Below, piece by piece: positions 4,163 to 40,139 of a stretch of DNA of 41,715 nt (position 1 is its first letter; every line of letters starts with the position of its first letter). The translations under genes and the position numbers were made by a program. Below the pieces are notes generated by a model. It did no database searches and was not told where the DNA came from. It worked only from the letters and a program-made list of their open reading frames with translations. Origin of the DNA: a virus; the IMG/VR virus record IMGVR_UViG_3300046000_006392, positions 1-41,715 of that record; one strand, given 5' to 3'.

Positions 4163-5464
4163 ATGAAACTGACCTTGCTAACCTGTACCGGCACTCGGCC
4201 GGAAGCGTTTGCTCTGTGCGAAAAGTACATGGCGCGACAAACGCTTCAACCCATTCAGTGGATCGTCATGGACGATGGAGCGATACCTACGCCCTGCACC
4301 ATGGGGCAAGAATATCACCACGTTCCACACATGACGGGACGCAGCTCCCTCGTTGAAAAAATCAAGTGGGTGTTGGAATCAAACACGATCCGAGGTGATG
4401 CTCTTTGCTTCATCGAGGATGACGATTGGTATGCCAAAGACTGGTTGGAGCTGTGCGCGACAAACCTCACTTCGTGTGACGTGTTCGGCGAAGGCCGCGC
4501 ATGGTATTACAACGTGCAACACCGGTACTGGTTTGCTCACGGCAATCTCACACATGCCAGCCTCTGTGCTACCGCGATACGTAAGCAAGTTTTCCCATCC
4601 CTCCTTGAAGAAACTCGCAGATCAAAAAACCCATTTATCGATGTAGCCCTTTGGGGGAAACGCTTGCTATCTCGGAGAGTTTTCGATCCTCAAACAGTTC
4701 GCCGGCGTCGCACCGTAGGTATCAAATCCATGCCCGGACGTTCAGGTTATGGAAGCGGCCACACCGCAAACGGGCGCGATGTTTCAGCCGTCGACGATTT
4801 AGACCTTAAACAGCTTACCGAGCAAATCGGAGATGATGCTAAAGACTACGCTCAATATTTCAAACCCGCCATGTCGACTATCCAAGCCCCATTCATCCCA
4901 AAAGTAAAATCCGTCACTGGACAAGTTCACGGGCCTAATTGGGCAAAGTGGCTTGCCCCGATCCAAGGCAAAGCGGATATCCGAGGTTTTGAGATTGGCA
5001 CATTCAAAGGCGAATCTGCCGAGTGGATGTTGGACAACATTTTCACGCATCCGACGTCAAAATATCACTGCATTGATCCGTTTCTCGGCTCTATCGAACA
5101 TCACAACGCGGGCATCGACTGCACCATCTTGGAGTCCGAAACCAAGAAGCGCCTCAAAGGCTATGCCAATGTTCAATTCCACAAAGAATTTTCCAACGAG
5201 GTGCTTCACACGTTCGACCGCGATTTTAATTTTGCCTACGTTGACGGAGCTCACGACGCCATGAACTGTTTGCGAGACGCAGTCATGTCGTTCGAGCTGC
5301 TCGTGTCCGGCGGCGTGATGGTTTTTGACGATTACGAATGGGCCGTGTTCCCGAACGCCATCGATAGGCCCAAGATGGCCGTAGATGCGTTTATCGCATG
5401 CTACGCAAAAGAACTCGACGTGTTGCAACGCACCGGCTGGCAAGTTTGTGTCCGTAAAAAATGA
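4163..5464 (+). CDS. Glycosyltransferase-methyltransferase fusion
   Basis: 433 aa. Residues 1-215 look like a GT-A glycosyltransferase, with TLLTCTGTRPEAF at the N-terminus, VMDDGA (35-40) and an EDDDW (85-89) metal site. Residues about 255-433 read as a class I SAM-dependent methyltransferase of the Methyltransf_24 type: motif I FEIGTFKGES (276-285), an acidic residue after strand 2 in CIDPF (303-307), YVDGAHD (359-365) and GGVMVFDDYEW (383-393). The fusion suggests that a sugar is added and methylated, or that a methylated sugar caps a short glycan. It starts one base after the upstream stop and its TGA overlaps the next ATG (ATGA), so it sits in one transcript with the neighbouring GTs. 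O-methylation of the glycan is inferred, not shown. Confidence 0.8.
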   Translation: MKLTLLTCTGTRPEAFALCEKYMARQTLQPIQWIVMDDGAIPTPCTMGQEYHHVPHMTGRSSLVEKIKWVLESNTIRGDALCFIEDDDWYAKDWLELCATNLTSCDVFGEGRAWYYNVQHRYWFAHGNLTHASLCATAIRKQVFPSLLEETRRSKNPFIDVALWGKRLLSRRVFDPQTVRRRRTVGIKSMPGRSGYGSGHTANGRDVSAVDDLDLKQLTEQIGDDAKDYAQYFKPAMSTIQAPFIPKVKSVTGQVHGPNWAKWLAPIQGKADIRGFEIGTFKGESAEWMLDNIFTHPTSKYHCIDPFLGSIEHHNAGIDCTILESETKKRLKGYANVQFHKEFSNEVLHTFDRDFNFAYVDGAHDAMNCLRDAVMSFELLVSGGVMVFDDYEWAVFPNAIDRPKMAVDAFIACYAKELDVLQRTGWQVCVRKK

Positions 5465-6210
5465 GCATCTCTGTCCACATCCTGACGTTTAACGAGGAAG
5501 ATATTCTTCCGTACACGCTGCGTCACTACGCTACGTTTGCCGACAAAATCATCATCCACGATGGCGGCAGCACGGATCGCACGCGGGAAATTGCACAGCA
5601 GTACGAAGTCGAGATTCGCGAATGGCGAACGGACGGGCTGAACGACAAACTGGCGAAGGAATTAAAGGAGCAAGCGTGGCGCACTGATGGGACCGACTGG
5701 GCTATCATGGTAGACGCTGACGAGTTGATCTACTTCCCAATGGGGGCGTGGAACACACTGGCCTCCTACGATTCTGCCGGCATAGCCATGGTTCGCCCCC
5801 AAGGATTTGAGATGGTGAGCGACGTCTTCCCCACCACAGAAGGACAAATCTATGATGAAGTCGTAACAGGTTGCCCAGAGAATGACTGGTACGCAAAGCC
5901 CGTTTTGTTCTCGGCCAATCGGATTTCCAGCGTCGAATTTTCGGCGGGTGCTCACGAAGCATGGGCCACGACCAAACAGGGATACCGGTTTCACAGTAAA
6001 TCTCTGCCGATCCTTACTCCGCCTACGTACTTTTTGCATTTTCACCATCTCGGTCCGGTTGAGCGGATCGCTGAGCGTTATGCCCGTCAACGGGCTCGGC
6101 TTAGCGCGCTCAACGTGGCCATGAAATGGGGTAATTTTGACCCACCCATGAAGCACGCCATGGACAAGCGCCAAATGATCATGGCGGGGGTCACTACAGT
6201 AATTGCATAA
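5461..6210 (+). CDS. Glycosyltransferase family 2 protein
   Basis: 249 aa with clear GT2 signatures: SVHILTFNEEDIL at the N-terminus (4-16), IIHDGGSTDRT (31-41) for nucleotide binding and MVDADELIYF (83-92), whose DAD is the DxD metal site. The protein is shorter than many bacterial GT2 enzymes and has no membrane segment, so it probably acts in the cytoplasm on a soluble acceptor. The start overlaps the upstream stop (ATGA). It is the last gene of the GT cluster and is followed by a 217-bp noncoding stretch with a promoter-like site and folded RNA before the capsid gene. Confidence 0.88.
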   Translation: MSISVHILTFNEEDILPYTLRHYATFADKIIIHDGGSTDRTREIAQQYEVEIREWRTDGLNDKLAKELKEQAWRTDGTDWAIMVDADELIYFPMGAWNTLASYDSAGIAMVRPQGFEMVSDVFPTTEGQIYDEVVTGCPENDWYAKPVLFSANRISSVEFSAGAHEAWATTKQGYRFHSKSLPILTPPTYFLHFHHLGPVERIAERYARQRARLSALNVAMKWGNFDPPMKHAMDKRQMIMAGVTTVIA

Positions 6211-6216
6211 AAGGCA

Positions 6217-6244
6217 TTGACGGAGCCCCTCAACGAGTTATTAC
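6217..6244 (+). promoter_or_regulatory. Putative sigma70-type promoter for the capsid gene
   Basis: TTGACG (6217-6222, 5/6 match to the -35 consensus), a 16-bp spacer and TATTAC (6239-6244, 4/6 match to -10). Initiation about 7 bases after the -10 would fall near 6251, exactly the first base of the closing helix of the RNA element. The match is by eye, and the host sigma factor preferences are unknown. Confidence 0.45.
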
Positions 6245-6250
6245 GAGAAA

Positions 6251-6401
6251 CATCCGGGGGTTATTAGCACGCAAGTGCCGGTCCGTCTGCGAGAGCAGAT
6301 ACATCCGCCGGGGACGAACGGGTGTGCCGCAAGGCCAAATTGGAGAGGGAACTACCCACCTTCGGATGAAAACATATTCGCCGGTCATTCCGACCAGCGA
6401 A
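6251..6401 (+). ncRNA. Structured RNA leader upstream of the major capsid gene
   Basis: Bases 6251-6261 pair with 6358-6368 over 11 bp, two of them G-U. Inside are hairpin P2 (6267-6270/6275-6278, GCAA loop), helix P3 (6281-6284/6312-6315) enclosing a TCTGC/GCAGA stem with a GAGA loop (6286-6299), and helix P4 (6320-6323/6354-6357) enclosing a 3-bp stem with a GCAA loop (6326-6335). Together they form a four-way junction with three GNRA tetraloops. After a short A-rich linker, a second hairpin (6377-6381 with 6397-6401, one C-A mismatch, then 6383-6386 with 6392-6395, loop ATTCC) precedes an unpaired A/C-rich stretch up to the capsid ATG at 6428. No U-tract follows, so it is not a simple terminator. 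I do not recognise it as a known riboswitch or ribozyme. It could stabilise the abundant capsid mRNA, regulate translation or be processed into an independent RNA. Confidence 0.6.
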
Positions 6402-6427
6402 ACAAACCAACTTAAATTCTTCTCACC

Positions 6428-7657
6428 ATGTCCTGCGCCCCGGTCCCAATCGATCTAGCCACGCAACTTTTCTCGCGTGATCCTCAACGTCTCTACGGCC
6501 CAATCGCCCGTAACCTGATGACTCAGGTTCCGTACATCTCCGTGCTCAAGTCCGGTACTTTCCCGGCTTCTGTCGCGTCCACGCTCTTGAGCGTTGCTCA
6601 AGGTCGTCCCTACCTCCAGACCTCTCTGGCCAATCCGACCTTCAATTCGATGCTGAACCTTTGCGGTTCTTGCTCGCTGAACGTCGACCAGAACGGTACG
6701 AACCAATACAGCTACATCGCCGAGATCAATCAAGGCATGTCCGACAAAATCTGTTTGAACCAAGGGTTCTCAGCGTTTCTCGGCTCCTTGACCGCTCAGC
6801 TTGAAGCCTATCAGACCGGTGTTACCGAGCTGATCAACTCCGATGTCCGTTGGCAGCTCTTCCTCCGTTCCGGTGTGAAGTGGGTTGTCCGCACGGGCAC
6901 CGACGTCACCTCCCAGATCGCTGGTGGTGAGTACGCCATCGACACGCCCGTCCCTGCGGTGCAGTCGAACGCCGAACTCACCTTCGGTGCTCTTCAGGCT
7001 GCCAACCGCTACATGCGTTCGGCCCTCCGCGCGAAGCCCTTCGGCTCTGGCGCCAATGCCCACGCCCGTTTCATCGGCTCCCCCGACATCCTCGATTTCC
7101 TCCGTAATGACCTCGGCGGTGCCGCTGGTCCCGGCGGTGCGAACATCGTCCCGTTGGGTCAAGTTGCCGCTGGCGGTAACAAGATGGCTCAAGACGCCCT
7201 CACCGGCTACCTGTTCGAGCCCCTCTACCGTGGCATTCAGCTCGGCGAGGACCCAATCCCATTGCGCCTCAACTGGAACGGCGCGGGTTACGACCCCGTC
7301 GATCCAAACGTCTCGCAATCGGCCACCGTCGGCACCGTCTCGGTCGTCTCTCAGGCTTGGCTCAATGCCTCGCACGAAGTGGCGTTCTTGTTCTATGACG
7401 GTTCCTTCGAGCGCCAAGTCCCCGCCCCGTTCACGGGCGAAGGCAAGATCAAGTTCCAACGCCAGCTCTTCGGTGGCGAGATTCAGTTCATGAACCACCC
7501 CGATATGTCCACCAACATGTTTGGTGACTACGGCGTGATGGCCTACCGTATCGGTCGCGCCCTCCGTCCGATCTATCCGTGGTTCGTTCTCCCGATCATC
7601 TACAAACGCTGCAAAGAAGATGGTCTTCTGACCACCTGCACCGGCGTTAGTGGCTAA
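6428..7657 (+). CDS. Putative major capsid protein
   Basis: 409 aa, the typical length of a phage major capsid protein. The composition is that of a soluble shell protein (many Gly, Ala, Asn, Gln), with no signal peptide or enzymatic motif. Visible segments that fit a HK97-fold subunit are an N-terminal helical arm, a central helix-rich part with LQAANRYMRSALRAKP (about 188-203) and a C-terminal strand region with MNHPDMSTNMFGDYG. The gene stands alone between a promoter-like site with a structured leader and a strong intrinsic terminator, the arrangement expected of the most highly expressed virion gene. No Shine-Dalgarno precedes the ATG. Cysteine pairs near the N-terminal third (CGSC) and the C-terminus are notable. 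The fold is not provable by eye; position and expression signals carry the call. Confidence 0.78.
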   Translation: MSCAPVPIDLATQLFSRDPQRLYGPIARNLMTQVPYISVLKSGTFPASVASTLLSVAQGRPYLQTSLANPTFNSMLNLCGSCSLNVDQNGTNQYSYIAEINQGMSDKICLNQGFSAFLGSLTAQLEAYQTGVTELINSDVRWQLFLRSGVKWVVRTGTDVTSQIAGGEYAIDTPVPAVQSNAELTFGALQAANRYMRSALRAKPFGSGANAHARFIGSPDILDFLRNDLGGAAGPGGANIVPLGQVAAGGNKMAQDALTGYLFEPLYRGIQLGEDPIPLRLNWNGAGYDPVDPNVSQSATVGTVSVVSQAWLNASHEVAFLFYDGSFERQVPAPFTGEGKIKFQRQLFGGEIQFMNHPDMSTNMFGDYGVMAYRIGRALRPIYPWFVLPIIYKRCKEDGLLTTCTGVSG

Positions 7658-7736: not shown

Positions 7737-13235
<5,499 letters not shown>

Positions 13236-15368: not shown

Positions 15369-17693
15369 ATGGCCACAACCAACATCCAGTTTACCATACC
15401 GCCCGTTAACCCCAGCACCACTACGGTTACGACCGTAGTCGCTGGCGCTACGGGTGCGACCGGGCCGCAAGGCAATCCGGGCCGTGAGGGTGCGGCGGGC
15501 ACTCCGGGACAAGCGGGTCCTCCCGGTCCAGCGGGTGGTCCTTCGGGCCCAACGGGTGCGACGGGTGCGACCGGATCGATTGGGGAAACGGGTGCGACAG
15601 GTGCTGCAAGCATCGCCCCCGGCCCTACGGGTGCCGTGGGTGTGACCGGCGCAACCGGAGCTATTGGCGTAACGGGCCCCACTGGCGTACAAGGTACGAC
15701 TGGCCCAACAGGCCCCATTGGCGTCACAGGTGTCACCGGGGTGACCGGCGTCACGGGCGTTACCGGCGTCACGGGCGTGACCGGCGTTACGGGCCCAACG
15801 GGTGCCGCAAGCATTATTCCCGGGGCTACAGGTATTCAAGGCGCAACGGGCCCTGCCGGAGTCACGGGCGTTACCGGCGTCACAGGTCTTACCGGCGTCA
15901 CGGGTGTGACCGGCGCAACGGGCCCTGCCGGCGTCACGGGCGTCACGGGTGCAACGGGTGCGGCAAGCACGGTTCCCGGCCCTCCCGGGGTTACGGGCGT
16001 TACCGGTGCAACTGGGGCAACAGGCTCTCCCGGCGTCACGGGCGTAACGGGCGTGACTGGAGTCACGGGTGTTACAGGAGTCACGGGTGTTACAGGCGTC
16101 ACAGGTGCAACTGGAGTATCTGGCTCTCCCGGCGTCACGGGCGTAACGGGCGTGACTGGAGTCACGGGTGTTACAGGAGTCACGGGTGTTACAGGCGTCA
16201 CGGGCGTAACAGGCCCCGGCGTCATCGCGGGCGGAGCTAAATATGCCCGACTGGCCAAGAACAGTACCACGAATTATGACGTGGGCTGGTACGGTCCTGA
16301 CGTTTTTAATATCACTGACTACGGCGCATCGCCATCAGCTAGTGCTGCGACTAACACTGCTGCGATAGTCGCAGCATTTACAGTAGCAACAGTAAGCGGT
16401 GGATGCGTTTTCGTACCCCAAGGCGTCTTCAACTGTGACAAAATTACGGTTACGATAACCGAAAATGTTGCCTTTATCGGCATGGGGCAAAATGCTTCCG
16501 TTCTTAAATTTAACCCCCCACCAGCAGATGGGGATTTGGGTTTGAAAGTTACGGTGTCTAGTGGCGGCCAGAACGACATTCGCAATTTTGAAATACAGGA
16601 TATTTGTTTCTGGGTAAGGAGTTCAGTTAATGAAAATTACGATGCTGGCACAGCTATTGAAGTTATTCATTCCAATTTCAACAATAAGCACTTCTTCCCA
16701 TACCTAAAAATCTTAAATTGCTGGGTGAGATGTGACATTGGTGCTGGATATTGGAGTAAGGGCATTAGCATGAGCCGATGCCATAACTACATCATTGATA
16801 ATTGTTTTATTTGTGGCAAGGTATCTGACTACGTTGGCTCCGGCATTTATTATCAGGATGCGATAATTAACGGCGACATAACCAACTGTCACATCAATTA
16901 CTGGTCTATTGGCGTTAATTCACCATTTAGAATGGAGGGCATGAACGCTATTGCCAACTATCTTATTGAGTGCAACATAGGATTTAAGATTGTCGGTCTT
17001 ACTTCAGGTACTAAACTTAGATCGACGGCCTTTTATGCGGCTTTTAACAATTTAGACTGTCGTGGATCGTCGCCTAGATGTTTCTATTTGAGAAATGTTT
17101 CGGCAGCTATGGTAACCAATAACGAAATGGTCCAAGATAGCGGGCCAGCAATTATTGATTGTCTTCGAGTATTCGAGTCAGCTTTTACGGCGAATACGAT
17201 TTACGGTCCCGCAACCTATGGTATTCATTTTGCTGGTGATGGAGAGGTTGGTCTTGACTCAATTTCAAACACCGTTGTTGGCAATATCTTTCGTGGTCAA
17301 TCAACCAACGTCTTGATTGATGCTAACAACAATGGGATCATTGTTACCAATAACCGATCAAATGATTCTGATAGCGATAATACGCTTGATTGGGTTTCGG
17401 TTACCGATAGTGGTTCTAACAACTTGTGCGGTGAATCTAAATCGTTCAGCACGGTTGAGACATTGGACGGAAGCACGCTGTTCTCATTTGATTACACCAT
17501 TACAACCTGCCAGCTTGGAAAGAAACCCAGCGGAGTAACTATATCTCTGGGTTCTGAATTTGGGTCTAACATCGTTGGTGGGTACGATTTTGACAATTCA
17601 ACTAAAACCACTGCCAAAATCAAGGTTTGGAGGACTGATGGAAGCGCACTTCCAAGTGGTGCAGTCCGATTCAATCTTTGCGTTAATCCTTAA
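15369..17693 (+). CDS. Collagen-stalked tailspike with right-handed beta helix
   Basis: 774 aa. After a short Thr/Val-rich N-terminus, residues about 26-284 are Gly-X-Y collagen repeats dominated by GVT. The rest (about 300-774) begins with [20 protein letters not shown] and VFVPQGVF, the classic opening of pectate-lyase-type beta-helix tailspikes, and continues with repeated N/I/V-rich coils ([12 protein letters not shown]-like turns). Such domains bind and often cleave surface polysaccharide. Catalytic residues cannot be assigned by eye. The coding sequence of the beta-helix part is clearly AT-richer than the flanking genes, suggesting exchange of the receptor-binding end. A collagen stalk replaces the usual head-binding domain. 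Confidence 0.85.
15444..16220 (+). repeat. Collagen-coding repeats with 80-bp perfect duplication
   Basis: About 0.78 kb of in-frame GXT codons, mostly GTC-ACG-GGC variants coding GVT. Bases 16023-16102 and 16122-16201 are identical over 80 bp at an offset of 99 bp, so a 33-codon unit has been duplicated recently. Confidence 0.9.
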
Positions 17694-31129: not shown

Positions 31130-32338
31130 TCATGGCCGCCGGCCGATCCGGTAGCTCTCAGGCGAATACCAGCCCGCGCCGCTGAGGTCGTTGATTTGGC
31201 GAAACGCCGCGTCGTAAATCTTCCCGCACGCTTGGAGTGAATACCGAGCGCGGGTTGTATCAGCCACGACCTTACGGTCGAGATGGCGCGTGGCTTCAAT
31301 GCCGTGCATCCAATCTCCGAGCGTGTTGCAGCGGTAGCCGGTGACACCTTCCACGATGGTCTCGGTGAACGCGCCATAGCCTACCGCGAGGAGTGGAGTG
31401 CCGCACAGCATCGCCTCAACGCCAGAGCCGGCGAAGGGCTCGACGAATGACGTGGGCATGAGCATGCAGCGGGCGTTGTTGATCAGGTCGGAGCGGGCGC
31501 GGCCATGCACGGGGCCGACGTACTCGATGTTGAGGCAATGGTCTTCTGGGCGCGGATCACCGAGAACGTGGCTCATCACCTCTTTCTCAAAATTACCTTG
31601 GCCGGCGAACACGAACCGAGGCGGAACCTCTTTGGTTTCTTTGCTGCGTTTGGCGAACTCGCGGATGATGGCCGCGATGGTGGTCATGCCTTTCTCGGGC
31701 GTGATGCGACCCATGAAAACGATGTAGTCGTCTTTGCCGGTGCCTACCTGCCAGTCATCGAGGTCGAAATAGTTCGGCACCACCCACGAGTAGAACCGGT
31801 TTTGGCCGCGCTCGCCTTGCGGCACGGACGCGTCGTGATCCCAACGGCCCCAGTGGTAGTGGCGCCACGCTTGAGACTCGAAGATGCGCCAACAACCGAA
31901 CGGCTTGTCGCCGTATCCAATACCAGACTCGACGTGCTGGCACTGGGGGAAGATGCCGACGAGCGACTCGTGAGCCCGACCGAATGGGTGAAGGATGATG
32001 TCGCCCGGGGCGACTCGCTTGGCCAGCTCGGTGATCAAACGGCTGTTAAACGTGGGCCAACCGAACTGTCCGATTACGGCGTGATTTCCATGAAATTCTT
32101 TGGCGTCGGGGCGGGGGTAAAACTCGGCAAACTCCTTGGCGTTGAGGATGGGTACGAACTCGGCCGCGTCGGTGGCGTCGCTGCCCTCGTTGGCGTAGAG
32201 AACCGTTTCCCAGCCGTAGGGCTTCATCATCTTGGCCCATCGGCGGCATTTGCCGCTGAACGCGCAATGGCTATAGGCATCGGTAAGTAGCGTGTGGAAA
32301 CAGGCTACCATGTGTAGCCGAGGGAGTTTGGTGGGCAT
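31130..32338 (-). CDS. Glycosyltransferase family 4 (group 1) protein
   Basis: 402 aa. GT-B signatures are in the C-terminal half: DYIVFMGRITPEKGMTTIAA (about 223-242) and VEPFAGSGVEAMLCGTPLLA (about 317-336), followed by FTETIVEGVTGY. These are the EX7E-type donor-binding elements of GT4 enzymes, with E318 and E326 as likely donor-contact residues. The N-terminal half binds the acceptor. There is no membrane segment. It is transcribed away from the Dps-like gene and towards the late operon, apart from the four GT-type genes near the capsid gene. Capsid, fibre or host surface glycan could be its target. Confidence 0.85.
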   Translation of the reverse strand: MPTKLPRLHMVACFHTLLTDAYSHCAFSGKCRRWAKMMKPYGWETVLYANEGSDATDAAEFVPILNAKEFAEFYPRPDAKEFHGNHAVIGQFGWPTFNSRLITELAKRVAPGDIILHPFGRAHESLVGIFPQCQHVESGIGYGDKPFGCWRIFESQAWRHYHWGRWDHDASVPQGERGQNRFYSWVVPNYFDLDDWQVGTGKDDYIVFMGRITPEKGMTTIAAIIREFAKRSKETKEVPPRFVFAGQGNFEKEVMSHVLGDPRPEDHCLNIEYVGPVHGRARSDLINNARCMLMPTSFVEPFAGSGVEAMLCGTPLLAVGYGAFTETIVEGVTGYRCNTLGDWMHGIEATRHLDRKVVADTTRARYSLQACGKIYDAAFRQINDLSGAGWYSPESYRIGRRP

Positions 32339-32417
32339 GATTTGGGGTTACCTTGTTAAGAATTGGGGTCAAGAGTTTTTCTTGCGCTGTAAAACCGGAT
32401 GCTCTACGAGGTTTGCC
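32339..32417. promoter_or_regulatory. Divergent control region between GT4 and Dps-like genes
   Basis: 79 bp between two outward-facing genes. TTGGGGT occurs twice in direct orientation (32342-32348 and 32363-32369), exactly 21 bp apart, about two helical turns, as expected of a paired operator. A TTGACC on the minus strand (32367-32372) could be a -35 for the GT4 gene but no good -10 follows. For the Dps-like gene, GAGG at 32408-32411 is a Shine-Dalgarno 6 bases before the ATG, and AAACC (32392-32396) can pair with GGTTT (32410-32414) to mask it partly. Confidence 0.35.
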
Positions 32418-32816
32418 ATGAAAGCCATCGCCACCCTCCTTCGCGCCCTTCAGCTTTACGCGCACAACGCTCACAATATGGCGAGCGGTTGTAACTTCCT
32501 TCAAGACCATGAGTTTTTTGGCGAGCTTTACCCAGCTTACGAAGGCGAGTACGACTCGGTGGTCGAGCGCATGATCGGCATGGATATGGAGGTGGATTTG
32601 CCGGCGCTGAATTGCGACGCTTGCGACATCGTCTCCAAAGCTAAGACCGGCGACTGCTGCACCAACTTCAAAGTGCTCCTTGCGACGGAAAAATCTTTGT
32701 GCGCCGAGATTAAAAAGACGGTCGGCTCCTGCTCGACTGGCACACAAAACCTTTTGCAAGGTATCGCGGACAAATCCGAGATGCGTCAGTACAAATTCAA
32801 ACGCATCACGAAGTAA
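32418..32816 (+). CDS. Dps-like ferritin-family protein
   Basis: 132 aa from the ATG at 32418, which has a GAGG 6 bases upstream; a longer frame reaches 32292 but overlaps the GT4 gene and control region. The first half matches Dps/ferritin-like proteins: YAHNAHNMASGCNFLQDHEF (14-33), FGELYPAYEGEYDSVVERM (34-52), with D46-x3-E50 as ferroxidase ligands and His16/His19 as the partner site. It is shorter than bacterial Dps (about 160 aa), and the C-terminal half is Cys-rich (Cys66, 69, 80, 81, 95, 105). It may store iron, quench peroxide or coat phage DNA during infection. It is an accessory gene between late and early regions and its stop touches the convergent helicase stop. Confidence 0.75.
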   Translation: MKAIATLLRALQLYAHNAHNMASGCNFLQDHEFFGELYPAYEGEYDSVVERMIGMDMEVDLPALNCDACDIVSKAKTGDCCTNFKVLLATEKSLCAEIKKTVGSCSTGTQNLLQGIADKSEMRQYKFKRITK

Positions 32817-34136
32817 TCAGGCGATTAACTTTCGGTAGTTAGACATGACGCGGGTCATCTCGTGTTGGGCATCGCCCTTCTCGCGCAAAGTTTCAATGAT
32901 CGCCTCGTCGATAGTGTTAGGCGAAACCAGCCGGTAAATCTGAGGCTGCTTGTCTTGCCCCTTGCGCGCCACGCGGGCGTTAAATTGATCGTAGAGTTCG
33001 CGACTCCACGTCGGAGAATACCAGACCACGGTGCGGCCGCCGGCTTGCATGTTTAGCCCGTGCCCGATGGATCGAGGATCGGCGACAAGGATTGGGATCG
33101 TGCCGCTGTTCCAAGCCTTCTCGATATCGCCTTTGAACTTGGCCACGTCGACGGCGCCGAGGCTTGAGAGCTCGCGACAAATGCGCTCGCGCTCGTGGAC
33201 GTAGTTGCACGCGACAAGCACGGGCTCGCCGATGCCGGTCACAAGTTTTTCCAACGCCTTAATCTTGGCGTCGTGTAACTCTTCAATGATGCGCTCGTCG
33301 TTGTAAACCGTGCCGCCGCAAATCTGGTGGAGTTTTCCAACCAAGGTGGCCGCGTTGCGTGCAACCACTTCGCCCTCTTTGGTCGCGATGAGAAACTGCT
33401 TTTCCAGTTCTTCGTACGCGGCGCGAACCGTGTCGGGCAATGGCACGTCGATGTCCTGTAACAGCGTGTCGGGGATGTCGAGGTAGTCGCTGCTGCGGAG
33501 CGTGACGGTCATGTCTTGAATCTTGGCGTAGACCTTACCCTCCGAGCCGGCCTTGGGCTCCCAGTTGTAACGCATGTAGTCGGTCGGGTAAAAATATCCG
33601 TCGCGAAAACTGGAGAACGCGGTGCCCAGCCGTTTGCCATCATCCAGCAACCGAATCTGGGCAAAGATTTCCAACAGTGAGTTGGGCCGTGGTGTGCCGG
33701 TCAGACCCCAGCGGCGCTGATGTTTGAGTAGCGGGCGCAGAGCTTTGATCCGTTTGCTCGTGGGGTTCTTGGCCTTGGTGATCTCATCGAAGACCACGAC
33801 GTCACAGAACTTGAGGTCTTCTAGCTGGCTCAACCGTTCGTAGTTGATGAGGTAGACGTGAGCTTTGCCCGAGGGTTTCTGACCCTTGAGAATCTCGGTC
33901 TTCATCCACTTAAACGCGTCCCATTTCTGAATCTCGTTTGGCCATGTAACGCGGGCCACGCGCAGCGGGGCGATAACCAGCGCGGCACGAATGGCGCCGT
34001 CTTTGAACAGCTCGTTGAGCGCAGATAGGGTCGAAGCTGTCTTGCCAAGGCCGAGCCCTACGTTGGCGTACGCTCGCTCGTTGTTGAGCAAGTGATCGCG
34101 CATCACCAACTGGTAGGGTTCGGGGTTGAATTTCAT
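32817..34136 (-). CDS. SNF2/DEAD-type superfamily 2 helicase
   Basis: 439 aa. Walker A is GLGLGKT (27-33) and motif II is DEIT (117-120) within VVVFDEITKAKN. GLTGTP (144-149) is motif III, and QFNARVARKGQ near the C-terminus is motif VI. This is the compact SNF2-like helicase often encoded beside a VRR-NUC gene and family A polymerase in phages, where it is thought to remodel or unwind replication or recombination intermediates. No extra domain is visible. It overlaps the VRR-NUC gene by four bases and its stop (32817-32819) directly abuts the Dps stop. Confidence 0.9.
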   Translation of the reverse strand: MKFNPEPYQLVMRDHLLNNERAYANVGLGLGKTASTLSALNELFKDGAIRAALVIAPLRVARVTWPNEIQKWDAFKWMKTEILKGQKPSGKAHVYLINYERLSQLEDLKFCDVVVFDEITKAKNPTSKRIKALRPLLKHQRRWGLTGTPRPNSLLEIFAQIRLLDDGKRLGTAFSSFRDGYFYPTDYMRYNWEPKAGSEGKVYAKIQDMTVTLRSSDYLDIPDTLLQDIDVPLPDTVRAAYEELEKQFLIATKEGEVVARNAATLVGKLHQICGGTVYNDERIIEELHDAKIKALEKLVTGIGEPVLVACNYVHERERICRELSSLGAVDVAKFKGDIEKAWNSGTIPILVADPRSIGHGLNMQAGGRTVVWYSPTWSRELYDQFNARVARKGQDKQPQIYRLVSPNTIDEAIIETLREKGDAQHEMTRVMSNYRKLIA

Positions 34137-34414
34137 GCGTTGGCTGCGAAGTGCAGAATCAGGATGCGAGCGTCGTCGAAGTTGTCAGCCCAAACCACCC
34201 GACAACCGGCTTCACGGATGCGACCCATCTCGTGAAGCTGGAGTGGAGTGGGCTTCTTCCCCTTCTGTTTTAGTTCGAGGAACATCGCCTTGCCGTTGCA
34301 CAGTATGATGCGGTCTGGCACTCCCCGATTAGCGGGAGAGACAAACTTGTACGTCGCGATCTGCTGACTGCGGCAGAGCGCGACGATCTTACGTTCTAGT
34401 TCCGATTCCAGCAT
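34133..34414 (-). CDS. VRR-NUC nuclease
   Basis: 93 aa from the ATG at 34414; the open frame runs further but would cover the next gene's end. The PD-(D/E)xK core is visible: GVPDRIIL (31-38, D34), FLELKQKG (45-52, E47 and K49) and Q59 in PTPLQLHEM. The length is normal for stand-alone phage VRR-NUC enzymes, which cut branched DNA such as Holliday junctions. Encoded directly before the SNF2 helicase, with a four-base overlap, it probably acts with it in recombination or replication. A weak GGAAAG precedes the start. Confidence 0.88.
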   Translation of the reverse strand: MLESELERKIVALCRSQQIATYKFVSPANRGVPDRIILCNGKAMFLELKQKGKKPTPLQLHEMGRIREAGCRVVWADNFDDARILILHFAANA

Positions 34415-34457
34415 CAGAGTATTACTTTCCCGTTTTCCGTAAACTGGAAATGCGGTG

Positions 34458-34655
34458 TCATTTGCAGGACTCCTTCCACTTAAATACAGGGTAGCCGTTT
34501 TCGTTGGTACTCCATACAGCGTGACCTTTTTTAACGGCTTCCCGCTCAAATTTTTCACCAAACTGCGAAGTACCAAAAGCAGCTCCAAATACAAAACCGA
34601 TTATTGCGAATACGAAAGAAAATATGATATAAGGAAAGATAGAATTGTTGTTCAT
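34458..34655 (-). CDS. Small membrane protein
   Basis: 65 aa with one hydrophobic segment (about 7-29) and then FEREAVKKGHAVWSTNENGYPVFKWKESC. The motif EREAV..GHA.W....G...F.W is common to many small phage proteins of unknown role. The N-terminus is short and uncharged, so it is probably anchored with the C-terminus in the cytoplasm. It overlaps the upstream gene by four bases; 43 bases separate it from the VRR-NUC start. Confidence 0.75.
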   Translation of the reverse strand: MNNNSIFPYIIFSFVFAIIGFVFGAAFGTSQFGEKFEREAVKKGHAVWSTNENGYPVFKWKESCK

Positions 34656-34918
34656 TTGCTGCCCTCCGTCTCAGAAGCTGGCGCCGCCTCGGGCGTGGGC
34701 ACGGGAGCGAAGTCCGAGTTAGGGTTAGGGATCGCCTCGAAGTGCGATGGCGGGTTGGCGGGATCGAAGACCATCACGCCGGCCGGCAACTTTTGAAGCG
34801 TGTACCGCTTGGAGAATATCTTGAGGGCTTTTTTCTGAGCCTCCTCGATGTTCTCGGCGTGGACGGTGGTCGCTCCAACGATGTTGGCGGCGACAAAGAA
34901 TTTCTGATTCTTGCTCAT
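34652..34918 (-). CDS. Hypothetical small protein
   Basis: 88 aa. The first 50 residues look like a small alpha/beta domain (KFFVAANIVGATTVHAEN, then AQKKALKIF), followed by a Pro/Ala/Glu-rich tail of about 35 residues. The ATG follows an A-rich leader (AACCATAAACCAAAACCTAAT) with no Shine-Dalgarno. It overlaps both neighbours by four bases, within the replication operon. No function can be assigned. Confidence 0.65.
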   Translation of the reverse strand: MSKNQKFFVAANIVGATTVHAENIEEAQKKALKIFSKRYTLQKLPAGVMVFDPANPPSHFEAIPNPNSDFAPVPTPEAAPASETEGSK

Positions 34919-35193
34919 ATTAGGTTTTGGTTTATGGTTTTTTGGATGCGGGAAAATTGGCGGGCTCGCTCGATCTTGGCAATGCGGCCAAGCAATCGAT
35001 TGATGATGGTTCGGCGCTGACCTTTCATCACTTCAAGGATGACGAGTCGGCGTAGGTCTTGTTCGGATACGCCAAGCAGGAACATCTCGTTGAGTTGATT
35101 CCAGCCTGATAAATGCGGCATGAGCCGCTTGGCGTCGTTGTCGGTGATCTCAACCGGCAAGTCGAAGATTTGGTACTTGGTGGCGATTTTCAT
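34915..35193 (-). CDS. Hypothetical protein following DNA polymerase
   Basis: 92 aa from the ATG at 35193 (ATGA overlap with the polymerase stop). The longer frame to 35352 lies inside the polymerase gene. It has an all-helical, charged composition: NQLNEMFLLGVSEQDLRRLV (about 32-51) and a basic C-terminal half (GQRRTIINRLLGRIAKIER). I associate this 'RTIINRLLGRI' type of end with small phage replication-operon proteins; no activity is known. Confidence 0.65.
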   Translation of the reverse strand: MKIATKYQIFDLPVEITDNDAKRLMPHLSGWNQLNEMFLLGVSEQDLRRLVILEVMKGQRRTIINRLLGRIAKIERARQFSRIQKTINQNLI

Positions 35194-37175
35194 TTTGAGT
35201 AGTAGGGCATGATCTTGGACTCGACCTTGAGCGGTAAACCCTGCGCCCATGCGGGCAGCGTGGCCAACGCGGCAGAGAACTGATCGGCCGTCTGACCTTT
35301 CAAGCGCAGCGCCAGACCTTGGTCGTGGATGAGCGCGAACGGTAGCATCCACAGACTCTCAGCCTTGCGCGCGCCATGAGACATGACATCGGCGGCGATG
35401 GCTTGGCAGACGTTCTCGAACGCTTTTGCGCCGTAGAGTTTGATGCGGCCCCATCGAGTGCTGCTCGGGATTTGCCCCCAATAGGTTATCTGTTGGCCGA
35501 ACTGGTCGTCGGCGACGATCTCGGGCAATGGGTACGCCAGCCGGCGACCCGAGGGTAGCGTGATAAAGAGGTAAAGCATGCCGGCCGTGCGCTCGCAATG
35601 AACACGCAACCGACCGAGCTCGGCGGGCGGGTTCTGCGGGCGTTGAATCGCAGCGACGATGGCGTCGTCGAGAGTGCGCCAGCACTTGGCCATGCGGCTA
35701 TGCTTTACGCGAAACGCCACCTTGGCCCGCTCGGATATTTCAAGCGAAATGTCGATGCCATACATGTCGCGGCACGAGGTCATAAACTTCTCGGCGCCCA
35801 TGCCGTAGCCGAGCCCAAGGATCGCGCGCTTACCTACCTCACGCTGGTCGCTGGTGACCTTGTCGACAGGTATGCTGTAGATGTAGGCGGCCATGGTGCG
35901 GTAACGGTCAACTCCACGACGGTATTCTTCCAGAGCCTCGACTTCGCCCGATACCCAGCACGCGATGCGGGCTTCGATAGCGTTGTAATCACCATCGAGA
36001 ATCTCGCAGTTAGGGTCGCCCACAAAGTGGCGCACGCACGAGGCCAGCACTTCAATGGGATCGCCATAGACGGCGTCGATGCCGGCGGCGGTGCCGCCCT
36101 TGGCGATGTAGGCAAAGGCCGCGTGAGTGATCGGGCGCATGGCCGGCGTGGCCTTCTTGGCGTTTTGAATCTGAGGGCCGCCAGCTGACCAACGGCCGGT
36201 GCCGGCGCCGTAAAACTTGAGCACGCCGTGTAACCGGTTATCAGGACAAGCCCACGCCAGCATGGTCGTGATCTTCTTCGTGGCCGCATAGGACACCTTG
36301 GAATAGAGGTCGAGAATCTTGGCGGCGCGCTCGCGGTTGGCCTTGTCGGCAATGTCTTTGGTCAGGTTGGGATTCTCCAACGTGTCGGCTTGCATGTTGT
36401 CGATGTCGACCCCGAGGCCGCGCACCATTTCCAAGACCTTTGCCCGTTGCGTGGGGTTGAGTCCGGTGATCTCGCGGAACTCGGTGACGATGCCTGACTG
36501 AACCTCGGTGAGAATCGATTGAGCGTTCTTCAAGGCCGGCACGTTTACGGGGATGCCCATGTGGTTCATCCGCATCGTAAATTGGTAGGTCGCTAAGTTC
36601 TCGTCGACCAGAGAAAATCGGTGTTTCAGTTTGGCGTGAATCTCGCGCTCGGCGCGTACGTCTTGCCGGCAATACTCGCAGAACTCGGCCCACTCTGCAC
36701 GGTGGTCGCGAGGCTCGTTGAACTGGCCATCCTCTTCGCGAGGCTGGGAGAAAAACTTAATGAGGGCTTTGCCGCGTGGGCTCTTCTTCGATTTGATATT
36801 GAGAGCTTCACCACAATTTTCGAGCGACTCAGGCAAACCGGCCATGCGGGCCATGGCTTGCGTGCATCGCCACTGATCAAGCCCGATATGCGTAAACATG
36901 TTTGTACCTGCACAGACCGGTTGCTCGAAACCGGTGTTGTGGGCGTGTACGCGTTTGGCGTTTTTGAGCATGTCCTCGGCACCTGCGTCCGATGGTATGC
37001 CGGCGTCATGGAACTTCGGATTAACCCAAAGGTAGACCGGCGACGCGGGGTCTGACGAACCGACGGCGCCCATGAATATCTCGGTGCTCGGGTCGCAGCC
37101 GTAGCGGTCAGCGCCTACGACGGTAAGGTCGATGCGGCTACGCGTCTCAATGTCAAAGTGTACGTCTTCGATCAT
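35190..37175 (-). CDS. Family A DNA polymerase with 3'-5' exonuclease
   Basis: 661 aa. The exonuclease is DEDDy type: HFDIE (6-10), N80 in AHNTGF, and YCRQD (Y168, D172). Polymerase motif A is ILDGDYNAIEAR (392-403, catalytic D396), motif B is REVGK then GLGYGMG (R445, K449, Y457, G458), and motif C is IHDQG (616-620, catalytic D618). The usual acidic neighbour after the Asp (HDE) is Gln here. Length and layout match phage replicative PolA enzymes lacking the 5' nuclease. It overlaps genes on both sides (ATGA) and heads a group with nuclease and helicase genes. The identification is secure. Confidence 0.95.
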   Translation of the reverse strand: MIEDVHFDIETRSRIDLTVVGADRYGCDPSTEIFMGAVGSSDPASPVYLWVNPKFHDAGIPSDAGAEDMLKNAKRVHAHNTGFEQPVCAGTNMFTHIGLDQWRCTQAMARMAGLPESLENCGEALNIKSKKSPRGKALIKFFSQPREEDGQFNEPRDHRAEWAEFCEYCRQDVRAEREIHAKLKHRFSLVDENLATYQFTMRMNHMGIPVNVPALKNAQSILTEVQSGIVTEFREITGLNPTQRAKVLEMVRGLGVDIDNMQADTLENPNLTKDIADKANRERAAKILDLYSKVSYAATKKITTMLAWACPDNRLHGVLKFYGAGTGRWSAGGPQIQNAKKATPAMRPITHAAFAYIAKGGTAAGIDAVYGDPIEVLASCVRHFVGDPNCEILDGDYNAIEARIACWVSGEVEALEEYRRGVDRYRTMAAYIYSIPVDKVTSDQREVGKRAILGLGYGMGAEKFMTSCRDMYGIDISLEISERAKVAFRVKHSRMAKCWRTLDDAIVAAIQRPQNPPAELGRLRVHCERTAGMLYLFITLPSGRRLAYPLPEIVADDQFGQQITYWGQIPSSTRWGRIKLYGAKAFENVCQAIAADVMSHGARKAESLWMLPFALIHDQGLALRLKGQTADQFSAALATLPAWAQGLPLKVESKIMPYYSK

Positions 37176-37351
37176 GCGAGGAAGATGCCGAGCTTAATCA
37201 AAAACACCGCGAGGATGATGTAAAAAGACCATATCCCCGTAAGAGCGCCGGCATGATTGTAATCTCGTTTAGCGCGATACTCGGTAATGACGGACGCGAC
37301 AAACAACCCGAGGGCAAAAGCAACGAGGGTTGAGAGGATAGAGTTGGCCAT
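37172..37351 (-). CDS. Small membrane protein
   Basis: 59 aa from the ATG at 37351. An alternative TTG at 37402, overlapping the upstream stop, would add 17 residues. Two hydrophobic stretches (about 4-22 and 38-58) are separated by a short charged loop (ITEYRAKRDYNHAG), so both ends probably face the cytoplasm. The stop overlaps the polymerase start. Function unknown; small two-pass proteins beside replication genes may attach replication to the membrane or block superinfection. Confidence 0.65.
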   Translation of the reverse strand: MANSILSTLVAFALGLFVASVITEYRAKRDYNHAGALTGIWSFYIILAVFLIKLGIFLA

Positions 37352-37398
37352 AAAAATAGTTGAGCCACCACTACGCAGGTTGCTCAGTCGCGCCTTAA

Positions 37399-37584
37399 TC
37401 AATCAACAGTTTCGACAGTTTCTGGTTTCTGCATCGAAGCCCACAACTGGTCACCGGACAGGTCGAGCAAGTCGAGCAAGCGGGAAACAGGCATGTGTTC
37501 TTTGATCTGAGCGGCCAGCACTGGATCGGAGTCCAACAGCAGAGCGATTTCAGCCGCTTGCTGCATGACGTGTGGGCGGTCCAT
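37399..37584 (-). CDS. Hypothetical small protein
   Basis: 61 aa from the ATG at 37584, one base after the stop of the ssDNA-binding gene. It is helical, with AAEIALLLDSDPVLAAQIKEHM and LLDLLDLSGDQLW, leucine-rich and acidic towards the end. No motif is recognised. The tight spacing with the genes around it supports a real gene in the replication operon. Confidence 0.6.
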   Translation of the reverse strand: MDRPHVMQQAAEIALLLDSDPVLAAQIKEHMPVSRLLDLLDLSGDQLWASMQKPETVETVD

Positions 37585-37585
37585 G

Positions 37586-38128
37586 TTAGATGGCGCCCTC
37601 ATCTTCATCGGGCAGAGCTTCAAACTCCTTACTCACGTCGACCGTGCCTTCGCCGAACGGAGCGCCGTCCTTGACGAATTGCACAGCGCGGAGCTGGGCG
37701 TTGATGCGTTTGCCAAACTTGTTGTCCTGAGCCCAGAGGCGCACGGTCGCATTGACGTAGCAACCGGCGTACGGTTTGCCATCGTCTTCGACGAGCGGGC
37801 TCATGTCGCGGTTCACCACTTGAGGGCGGCGGTCGCAACGGGCCGAGATAAACATCACGTCTTCGCCGTAGCCATCGAGCTCTTTCTCAGCGCCGTCGCG
37901 GAGGCAAATCTTCGGTGGGGTCTTGCCTTTGAAATCGTCGCGGACGATCTGGGCAATCATGTCCTTGATCGCTTTGATCGAGGAGGCGTTGGTCTTTTTA
38001 TCGAGGATGAAGGTCGCGCTGAACGCCTCTTTGCTGTTCTCTTCTGGGCCCTTTTTAGGACGGAAGAGAGCGGGGAAGGACAGGCGAGCGTTGACTAGCT
38101 TTACGTTGGTTTTTTGTTCGTTAGACAT
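37586..38128 (-). CDS. DUF2815-type single-stranded-DNA-binding protein
   Basis: 180 aa. Opening KLVNARLSFPALFRPKK (about 10-26), then FSATFILDKKTN (about 37-48), GYGEDVMFISARCDRRP (about 86-102), PYAGCYVNATVRLWAQDN (about 119-136) and an acidic C-terminus (EFEALPDEDEGAI). This is the layout of DUF2815, an OB-fold family equivalent to T7 gp2.5 single-stranded-DNA-binding proteins, with an acidic tail for partner contacts. Placed between DUF2800 and the polymerase, it belongs to the common DUF2800-DUF2815-PolA module. Confidence 0.9.
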   Translation of the reverse strand: MSNEQKTNVKLVNARLSFPALFRPKKGPEENSKEAFSATFILDKKTNASSIKAIKDMIAQIVRDDFKGKTPPKICLRDGAEKELDGYGEDVMFISARCDRRPQVVNRDMSPLVEDDGKPYAGCYVNATVRLWAQDNKFGKRINAQLRAVQFVKDGAPFGEGTVDVSKEFEALPDEDEGAI

Positions 38129-38148
38129 ATCAGTGTTTCAGGTTGTGC

Positions 38149-39309
38149 TCAAATGACATCGAGGTTTTCGAGTCCTTGAGCGGTGCTATAATCGAGGGCT
38201 GGCCGCTTATCGTCTTCGGAGACGAGAGTTGGTTTGCCTTCGGGCTTAGTAATCAGGGACTGCAAACGCGTTTTGAAGCGCGCCGACAGTTCGATCCCCT
38301 TGAGAGCTTCTTCCGCCTGTTTGGGCGAAATGAGGTCGGCTCTCGGCCTCGTGGTATCGATACCAAGGTGGTTGCTTAACAAGGTCTGGGCCGCTTCGGC
38401 GTCTTTCCAGACGCGATTCGATTTACCAGTAACCAGTTTATAGCCCATGGGGGTTGCGCCCGCCATGAGGTCGCCGACCTCTTGGTCTTCGACTGCTTCA
38501 AGCCAATCCTTCAACAGCTTCTTGGCGGCTAGTACCTTCACGCGTTGTTCACGAGTGAGGGACTTGACGTCAGGCATCTGTATGGGGCGGGCTTCCTCGG
38601 GCAATGCTACCAAACCCTCGTTGCCGTAAGCGGTGCAAATACCCTTGGCTGGGCAAAATTTGCACGCCTTGTCAGACGGGCCGAAAGTGCCATTGCCTGA
38701 TAGGGCAATAGCAGCTTTGCAGCCCAGTTCGGCGGCAAAGGAACGCAACTCTCCGCGAGTGAGTGACCATGTACGGACAGGCTCGGAATCGTTACGATCT
38801 CTGGGTTGGTAGATTGTCAGGTGGACTGGAAGGTCGTCTGGGAAATCCAGCGCGGCCTCCCAAAGTTGGATGAGCGACTCGGCATAGATTGCCAGTTGCT
38901 CGTTCTCGTAGGCATAGACCGACACGCCCACGCCGTACTTGAGGTCATCGATGAAGATGGCGTCGGGCCGGCGAATGGATGCGTCGACCAGCCCGTTGCG
39001 GTCGGGCAAGTAAAACAGGGGAACCTTTTGCTCCACGAGCAACGTCGAGCCCATCGTGTAGTGGGACATGACGTGCTTAACGTAGCCGTTGACGTGCTGG
39101 ATCATAATCTCAGGCACGTCAGCGGGCACGGGTTGCTCGGTTAGCATGCGATTGGCCACGTCGTGCGCGAGCGTACCCTCGTCAGCATAGACCGACGAGT
39201 CCTCGCCCAGCTGATCCGCGTTATCGAGGATGTACTGAGGCGAAGCGGTGCAACGCGACCACCGATGGGCGGCCGACGGTCCAACGTCGATGCGGTTACG
39301 ACGTCCCAT
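38149..39309 (-). CDS. DUF2800 Cas4/RecB-like nuclease
   Basis: 386 aa from the ATG at 39309, overlapping the upstream gene by 14 bases; a longer frame to 39402 covers that gene further. Residues about 10-230 hold the RecB-type nuclease: GPSAAHRWSRC (10-20), EGTLAHD (44-50, H49), IFIDDLKYG (118-126) as the D-x-K core and ENEQLAIYA (135-143, Q138). Four Cys (C20, C216, C219, C225) are placed to hold an iron-sulfur cluster as in Cas4 and AddB. It probably degrades or processes DNA ends during recombination. The family name DUF2800 is clear from the layout; activity is inferred. Confidence 0.88.
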   Translation of the reverse strand: MGRRNRIDVGPSAAHRWSRCTASPQYILDNADQLGEDSSVYADEGTLAHDVANRMLTEQPVPADVPEIMIQHVNGYVKHVMSHYTMGSTLLVEQKVPLFYLPDRNGLVDASIRRPDAIFIDDLKYGVGVSVYAYENEQLAIYAESLIQLWEAALDFPDDLPVHLTIYQPRDRNDSEPVRTWSLTRGELRSFAAELGCKAAIALSGNGTFGPSDKACKFCPAKGICTAYGNEGLVALPEEARPIQMPDVKSLTREQRVKVLAAKKLLKDWLEAVEDQEVGDLMAGATPMGYKLVTGKSNRVWKDAEAAQTLLSNHLGIDTTRPRADLISPKQAEEALKGIELSARFKTRLQSLITKPEGKPTLVSEDDKRPALDYSTAQGLENLDVI

Positions 39310-39802
39310 GGGTGAGCTTGGTAAGGAGTTCGTGAATCTCGGCGTACTGCTCTTCCGTCGCTTCGGAAATGCGGCGAAGGCCGAACTTCTTGTTGATCGC
39401 AATCACGCCCGAGAGCTTGTCGTTGTCGAGAGCGACTTGGGCCAGCTCGCGAATGTCTTGGAGTGTGATCTTCACAGACTCGTGCATGGCACCGGTGACG
39501 GGCTCGGGCTCGACGGCAATGGCCACCTCGGGCTCGGCGGCTGGCTCCAGTGAGTGCTTAGCAATGAGCTCGTCAGCGGCTTGGTGAGCTTCTTGAAACG
39601 TGGTAGGCAGTGCGGCGGCTTTCTTGCGCGACTTTTTCGGCGTCTCGGGCTCAACGGCTGGCGCCGGCGTGGGCTCGGGATTTGCAAGAACTTCGGGGGT
39701 ATTGGCCCCTGCCAGTACTGGCGCAGCGTTGAGCGTGGTGATGGTCTGGGTCAGGTTCTCAACTGCGACCGTGAGTTTATTGATACTATCTTCTAGGGAC
39801 AT
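39296..39802 (-). CDS. Hypothetical replication-operon protein with Pro/Ala linker
   Basis: 168 aa. A helical N-terminus (INKLTVAVENLTQTI) is followed by a Pro/Ala/Glu-rich linker (about 30-105) and a compact C-terminal domain: VKITLQDIRELAQVALDNDK (about 110-129), then KFGLRRISEATEEQYAEIHE (about 138-157). The last part resembles a small helical domain common in phage replication operons next to DUF2800 genes; its function is not established. The ATG follows a leader of A/C-rich sequence without a Shine-Dalgarno. Confidence 0.65.
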   Translation of the reverse strand: MSLEDSINKLTVAVENLTQTITTLNAAPVLAGANTPEVLANPEPTPAPAVEPETPKKSRKKAAALPTTFQEAHQAADELIAKHSLEPAAEPEVAIAVEPEPVTGAMHESVKITLQDIRELAQVALDNDKLSGVIAINKKFGLRRISEATEEQYAEIHELLTKLTHGTS

Positions 39803-39827
39803 GTTGTATTTTGTTGGTTGTTATTTC

Positions 39828-40085
39828 TCAGACAGAGTAGGGTGGGGTATCCAAAGCGATGTCGGCTTTGATGACGGCGACCTTGAGGTCAGCGGCGTAC
39901 CAGTCGGCCTCGGTGCTGCGCTCCATGAGGGAAAGGCCGGCGGCGCGGAGGTCGGTGAGGGCCACACGCAGCGCAGCGTTCTGCGATGCGGTGTAGAACT
40001 GTTTCTCGTCGGCTAACTTTAGACGGGCTTCGAGGTCGGCAATCATGGCCGCCTGAACTTCAATGGGTGTCGGGTCGTTGGGCAT
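39828..40085 (-). CDS. Hypothetical coiled-coil small protein
   Basis: 85 aa, predicted helical: ADLEARLKLADEKQFYTASQ (about 16-35) and LRVALTDLRAAGLSLMERST (about 39-58), charged and Ala/Leu-rich, with a short non-helical end. No motif. It lies in the replication operon, 54 bases after the helicase stop. Those 54 bases hold a short AAGC/GCTT hairpin (40120-40132) and an A/T-rich leader, with no clear promoter. Confidence 0.6.
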   Translation of the reverse strand: MPNDPTPIEVQAAMIADLEARLKLADEKQFYTASQNAALRVALTDLRAAGLSLMERSTEADWYAADLKVAVIKADIALDTPPYSV

Positions 40086-40139
40086 GGGTTAAAACAAAAA
40101 CTGTTTCTGTTCGGTCGTCAAGCGGTTTGCTTAATAATT

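Follow-up and report, generated by a model that had tools for sequence, protein, structure and literature searches.

The window, that is, the whole stretch of 41,715 nt that was analysed, comes from IMG/VR, where it is listed as a virus contig (41.7 kb), and the element examined here lies at 6251-6401 on its + strand. It consists of a closed, multi-helical RNA domain and a separate hairpin, with promoter-like boxes on one side and a predicted capsid gene on the other (Table 1). In the window, methyltransferase and glycosyltransferase genes (4163-6210) lie directly upstream of this leader; most close relatives carry another gene in that place.

Table 1. Coordinates of the leader RNA, its promoter-like boxes and the gene that follows
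Feature	Position	Strand	Remarks
-35-like box TTGACG	6217..6222	+	TTGAC spacing kept among relatives
-10-like box TATTAC, 16-nt spacer	6239..6244	+	judged by place and spacer length; most relatives have TAT(T/C)
P1, 5' strand	6251..6261	+	7 conserved pairs (6255-6261) and four outer pairs, three poorly conserved
Unpaired joiner UAUUA before P2	6262..6266	+	invariant in eight leaders; UAAUA in L011
P2 hairpin, GNRA loop GCAA/GAAA	6267..6278	+	A-U/G-C covariation; GAAA in L066, GCAA in L067
Pseudoknot stem S1, 5' strand GUCC, ahead of P3	6281..6284	+	invariant in close group
P3 hairpin, GAGA loop	6285..6300	+	three pairs change on both sides
P4, 5' strand	6301..6307	+	pairs with 6319-6325
Pseudoknot stem S1, 3' strand GGAC, within P4 loop	6312..6315	+	pairs with 6281-6284
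P4, 3' strand	6319..6325	+	pairs with 6301-6307
P5 hairpin, GNRA loop GCAA/GUAA/GAAA	6326..6335	+	C-G to U-A covariation; GCC-GAAA-GGC in L067
Unpaired purine box J5/6, GGAGAGG region	6341..6346	+	almost invariant, eight leaders
P6 hairpin GGG-AACUA-CCC (6347-6349/6355-6357)	6347..6357	+	pairs invariant in close group
P1, 3' strand	6358..6368	+	pairs with 6251-6261
Hairpin H2, 9-bp with one mismatch	6377..6401	+	hairpin position constant among leaders, sequence differs
Weakly structured 26-nt linker, pyrimidine-rich end, without Shine-Dalgarno	6402..6427	+	
Major capsid protein gene, 409 aa, HK97-type fold predicted	6428..7657	+	AlphaFold, Foldseek, ENC

What does the gene behind the leader encode? 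Its product had no sequence match in Pfam, PHROG or PDB. An AlphaFold model from a deeper alignment (12 sequences) reached a mean pLDDT of 51.6, compared with 28 in the first model, and only parts of its C-terminal two thirds are confident (pLDDT 70-87). Foldseek, run with this model, returned phage capsid chains for nearly all of the 50 highest-ranked PDB entries, the best being that of cyanophage Pan3 (E=3.2e-4, probability 0.96), with A4 also among the best and phage N4 matched at a probability of 0.98 (E=3e-3). TM-scores to the capsid matches were low (0.25-0.31) because about half of the residues of the model are unconfident. Also, no other long + strand gene has an ENC as low as this one, which is consistent with high expression. 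Taken together, the model and the ENC support the assignment of the gene as a major capsid protein with a predicted HK97-type fold, in agreement with the sequence-only reading of this DNA, which had placed a folded leader RNA before the capsid gene; these predicted capsid proteins possibly form a new family of uncultivated phages. Neither the terminase nor the HK97 Phage_capsid Pfam models gave a match in the contigs.

Searching IMG/VR with the downstream protein (409 aa) retrieved 11 loci with 66-100% identity, and the leader was recognisable by sequence at nine of them. These nine loci and the window form what we call the close group, which contains eight distinct leader sequences. DNA-pattern scans of IMG/VR, run independently, recovered the same loci, and a pattern of the 3' half added L010. 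The sole other pattern match, L022, was rejected as a leader homologue, being a chance match within a coding region. Distant relatives, with overall capsid-protein identities of ~51% (L066), ~43% (L067) and 34% (L055), were recruited with two conserved segments of the capsid protein. In 10 of the 12 contigs the covariance model found the leader, always as a single copy and always at the capsid gene; with model R1, there was no significant score for L010, L011, L066 and L067. In the collections searched, the element is thus present in a single copy per genome and only ahead of the capsid gene. A sequence search of cultured phages with the leader and four capsid homologues gave no match, nor did bacterial and archaeal genomes when searched with the capsid profile and the RNA pattern. 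The comparative support comes from only about five independent lineages.

The fold is stronger than expected from composition. The 151 nt of 6251-6401 have an MFE of -62.0 kcal/mol, whereas dinucleotide shuffles average -47.9 (z = -3.5) and none of 200 reached the value of the leader. The sequence-only reading had argued that three GNRA caps together with a fitting closing helix would seldom arise by chance, and the tiling agrees for the caps: among 1,412 tiled segments of 118 nt, scanned on both strands, 1,368 contained no GNRA-capped hairpin, 43 contained one and none contained two or three, so that 6251-6368, with four in its MFE structure, is the only tiled segment with more than one. Conservation does not extend to the fourth of these loops, GGGA within P4, whose 2-bp stem is broken in L004, L007 and L008. 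When the whole leader is folded together with the start of the coding region, competing pairings appear in most relatives, and these may leave room for a switch.

Comparison of the eight distinct leaders identified six pairs with compensatory changes, whereas shuffles gave a mean of 1.6 and none of 500 reached six; such changes in homologous leaders were what the earlier reading had named as the support to look for. In the eight close sequences 94% of the cells pair, compared with 34-48% in slid controls. The bulk of the covariation lies in P3, P2 and P5, that is, in the GAGA, GCAA and GCAA hairpins already drawn from the single sequence, and the separate 9-bp hairpin downstream also stands, with its one mismatch. 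The 11-bp closing helix is present as well: its inner block (6255-6261/6358-6364) provides 7 of 11 pairs that are unbroken in all eight leaders, whereas of the outer four a single pair survives in every leader and the remaining three are mostly disrupted in the relatives. P1 is doubtful in L010, L066 and L067, and P3, absent from the same three, is optional. Since the pairs of P6 are invariant in the close group, covariation cannot test them. What had to be given up is the four-way junction of the earlier reading, in place of which the relatives back six helices and a pseudoknot. As predicted from these alignments, the layout is a P1-closed domain with P2-P6 plus a pseudoknot between 6281-6284 and 6312-6315.

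Outside the close group the strands of S1 differ yet complement each other: CGCC/GGCG in L010, GCCC/GGGC in L011, GCUC/GAGC in L066 and CCCU/AGGG in L067. Strands of the same lineage pair at 20/20 positions and strands swapped between lineages at 61%, a count that is biased because the strands were chosen partly by complementarity. A pseudoknot in the leader upstream of the AUG, a feature shared with T4 gene 32-type leaders, is predicted here, with S1/P4 supported in five lineages. The same core, written in different stem letters, precedes the capsid gene in both L066 (~51%) and L067 (~43%). A descriptor consisting of a GNRA hairpin followed by the S1/P4 pseudoknot found 15 matches in 874 kb of shuffled sequence, whereas the + strands of L066 and L067 carry exactly one match each, in both cases in the capsid leader. 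The odds that this implies are optimistic, since the ranges of the descriptor were chosen with both leaders already in view. A looser pseudoknot descriptor was dropped as too unspecific in favour of this GNRA-anchored one. L010 shares with the close group the stretch GGAGGAGGAAAUGCCCACCUUCGGAUG at the expected 3' end of the RNA, and L011 shares AACCGGCGGUUAAUAGCG at the expected 5' end. The leader of L055 is differently structured, and no match to the core was found in it. The distant capsid relative of that contig (2945-4306) is accompanied by a promoter-like site, TTGACG-N17-TATCAT, and its homology reaches upstream of the first ATG/GTG/TTG, which leaves its start codon ambiguous.

Mean pairwise identity within the domain is 90%, equal for paired and unpaired columns. 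The background is far lower: 53% at fourfold-degenerate sites (47 in number) in the gene next to it, and 55% in the spacer that leads to the AUG. Judged by these comparisons, the domain is strongly constrained, non-pairing bases included, and constraint on unpaired bases suggests specific recognition or tight tertiary packing. That the RNA persists across capsid divergence to ~43% identity indicates that it is probably important to these phages.

Where does the transcript begin? In the window, in seven close relatives and in L011 and L066, P2 is preceded at a distance of 48-51 nt by a TTGAC box. L010, where P2 is not clearly present, has the box 48 nt ahead of the S1 strand, which brings the total to 11 leaders; L067 has no such box. 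A consensus promoter scan of the window called no promoter at TTGACG/TATTAC, and the promoter argument therefore rests on conservation. The fixed distance between TTGAC and P2 suggests that transcription probably starts at the first base of the RNA, near position 6251, where P1 also begins. A search of the contigs with Pfam models of phage RNA polymerase, made without a positive control, gave no match. Between the RNA and the capsid gene no + strand terminator-like site was found in the window, no leader contains a run of at least five T, and no conserved upstream ORF was found in the leaders, so that co-transcription with the capsid gene is expected. Leader-peptide attenuation was rejected, given the lack of a conserved upstream ORF. 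On the - strand, a terminator-like hairpin with a T-rich tail (6377-6401) overlaps H2.

Close to the start codon, hairpins of differing sequence occur 27-34 nt ahead of the AUG in all ten leaders tested; taken singly, none stands above shuffles. The last 25 nt before the AUG are 55-79% unpaired in the ensemble, yet they are C-rich and have competing pairings. No clear Shine-Dalgarno was seen among the listed genes of the window, which makes sequestration of such a site unavailable as a mechanism. The same lack points to an SD-independent host, and the promoter-like boxes look of the sigma-70 type. A pyrimidine-rich tract (6413-6427) lies just before the capsid AUG; it is present in relatives and richer than the sequences before most other genes.

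The leader RNA belongs to no described RNA family. At the gathering cut-off, Rfam 15 gave no match in the window and six relatives, in line with the sequence-only reading, which had assigned it to no known riboswitch or ribozyme class; L066 and L067 had no Rfam 15 match either, and a permissive scan returned only a chance-level antisense match (E=3). No earlier description of it was found in the literature searched, which covered few subscription papers. The manA and wcaG motifs of cyanophages are also structured RNAs in potential 5' UTRs (PMC2864571), but they are tied to metabolic and host genes and neither is matched here in Rfam.

What might such an RNA do ahead of a capsid gene? It probably controls the amount of capsid protein made. 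Our preferred reading, to which we give a probability of roughly 0.45, is a cis-acting leader of the capsid mRNA that would set mRNA stability and start-codon access. With transcription starting at about 6251, the first bases of the RNA would be drawn into P1, and a compact body would form in which P1-P6, with their GNRA-capped hairpins, are held together and the P4 loop is locked by the pseudoknot, followed by the hairpin, the 26-nt linker and the AUG. The buried 5' end would shield a heavily used message from 5'-end-dependent decay, and the start codon would stay open to ribosomes of a host that works without Shine-Dalgarno pairing. The conserved unpaired bases would probably be bound by a protein of host or phage. 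Against simple protection speaks the 90% identity at such bases, needless for a plain protective hairpin, which points to a specific partner or ligand. We favour this stability and translation leader for three reasons: the RNA would begin at the predicted +1, no switch platform was seen, and the gene behind it is the one in greatest demand. The leader of T7 gene 10, likewise that of a very highly expressed phage capsid gene, is a short translational enhancer with a Shine-Dalgarno and an RNase III-made 5' hairpin; here, by contrast, a large pseudoknotted domain is predicted and there is no Shine-Dalgarno.

A less probable but credible alternative is an autogenous operator, in which the capsid protein, or some other protein of the virion or of its assembly, would bind the pseudoknot domain and repress its own translation. 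The invariant unpaired bases, which suggest a specific binder, and the strict one-to-one tie of the RNA to the capsid gene speak for it, and it has a precedent: gp32 of T4 binds the pseudoknot of the gene 32 leader and shuts off its own translation. In that leader the pseudoknot lies 67 nt upstream of the start codon and is followed by an unstructured stretch (PMC3014915). Both are 5' leaders of phage mRNAs in which a pseudoknot precedes the start codon by some 60-70 nt. The RNA described here differs in being much larger (P1-P6, GNRA caps), in having no sequence relation and no Shine-Dalgarno, and in preceding a capsid gene instead of an SSB gene; autoregulation is putative here. Leaders of the E. 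coli rpsO (S15) type are likewise structured, pseudoknotted and attached to a highly expressed gene, but those genes are cellular and no such leader is matched in Rfam. As a possible switch, the conserved purine box GAGAGG could pair with its complement in the pyrimidine tract just ahead of the AUG, a weak argument given that this pairing is not clearly above composition-matched shuffles. Should the two act as a switch, the RNA could even be a sensor of assembly, the pseudoknot binding capsid or scaffold protein and coupling capsid synthesis to assembly, which we consider unlikely.

The sequence-only reading had offered two roles, a cis-acting RNA or an independent virion or regulatory RNA. 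The first is the likely one. The second, a processed or prematurely terminated small RNA with a role in trans or in the virion, for instance as a packaging RNA, would fit the high conservation without coding, the promoter-like box of its own and the closed domain; it is disfavoured, and in our opinion rather improbable, because no + strand terminator was found in the window and because the RNA is co-linear with the capsid message, always precedes that one gene and keeps its distance to the promoter-like box. The phi29 pRNA is also a phage-encoded structured RNA of similar size, but it is stand-alone and lies near the genome end, whereas this RNA is an mRNA leader before the capsid gene, and the Rfam family of pRNA was not matched. 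About equally improbable is a riboswitch, in which the domain would serve as aptamer for some small molecule or ion that varies over the course of infection. A compact pseudoknotted fold with invariant unpaired bases is what such an aptamer would look like, but no conserved expression platform was found (no + strand terminator in the window, no long T-run in the leaders and no Shine-Dalgarno at the listed genes), the AUG-proximal pairing is weakly supported, and a virion gene would be an unusual target for an RNA occurring at one gene only. Finally, a chance fold in a DNA segment conserved for other reasons (promoter, origin) agrees with the adjoining promoter-like box but is most improbable in view of the compensatory changes, the retained GNRA caps and an architecture that distant relatives build from different letters.

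The leader adds an undescribed RNA family in a little-known phage group and bears on how very high expression may be reached in SD-less hosts. Its predicted pairs are specific enough for direct mutation-and-rescue tests. Elsewhere in the window, the capsid gene is followed by two genes (8815-13050 and 15369-17693) whose products, 1411 and 774 aa in size, are very long proteins of the collagen-like (Gly-X-Y) kind, and the - strand carries a replication block at 31130-41681 with DNA polymerase A, a gp2.5-like SSB, an exonuclease, a helicase and a primase.
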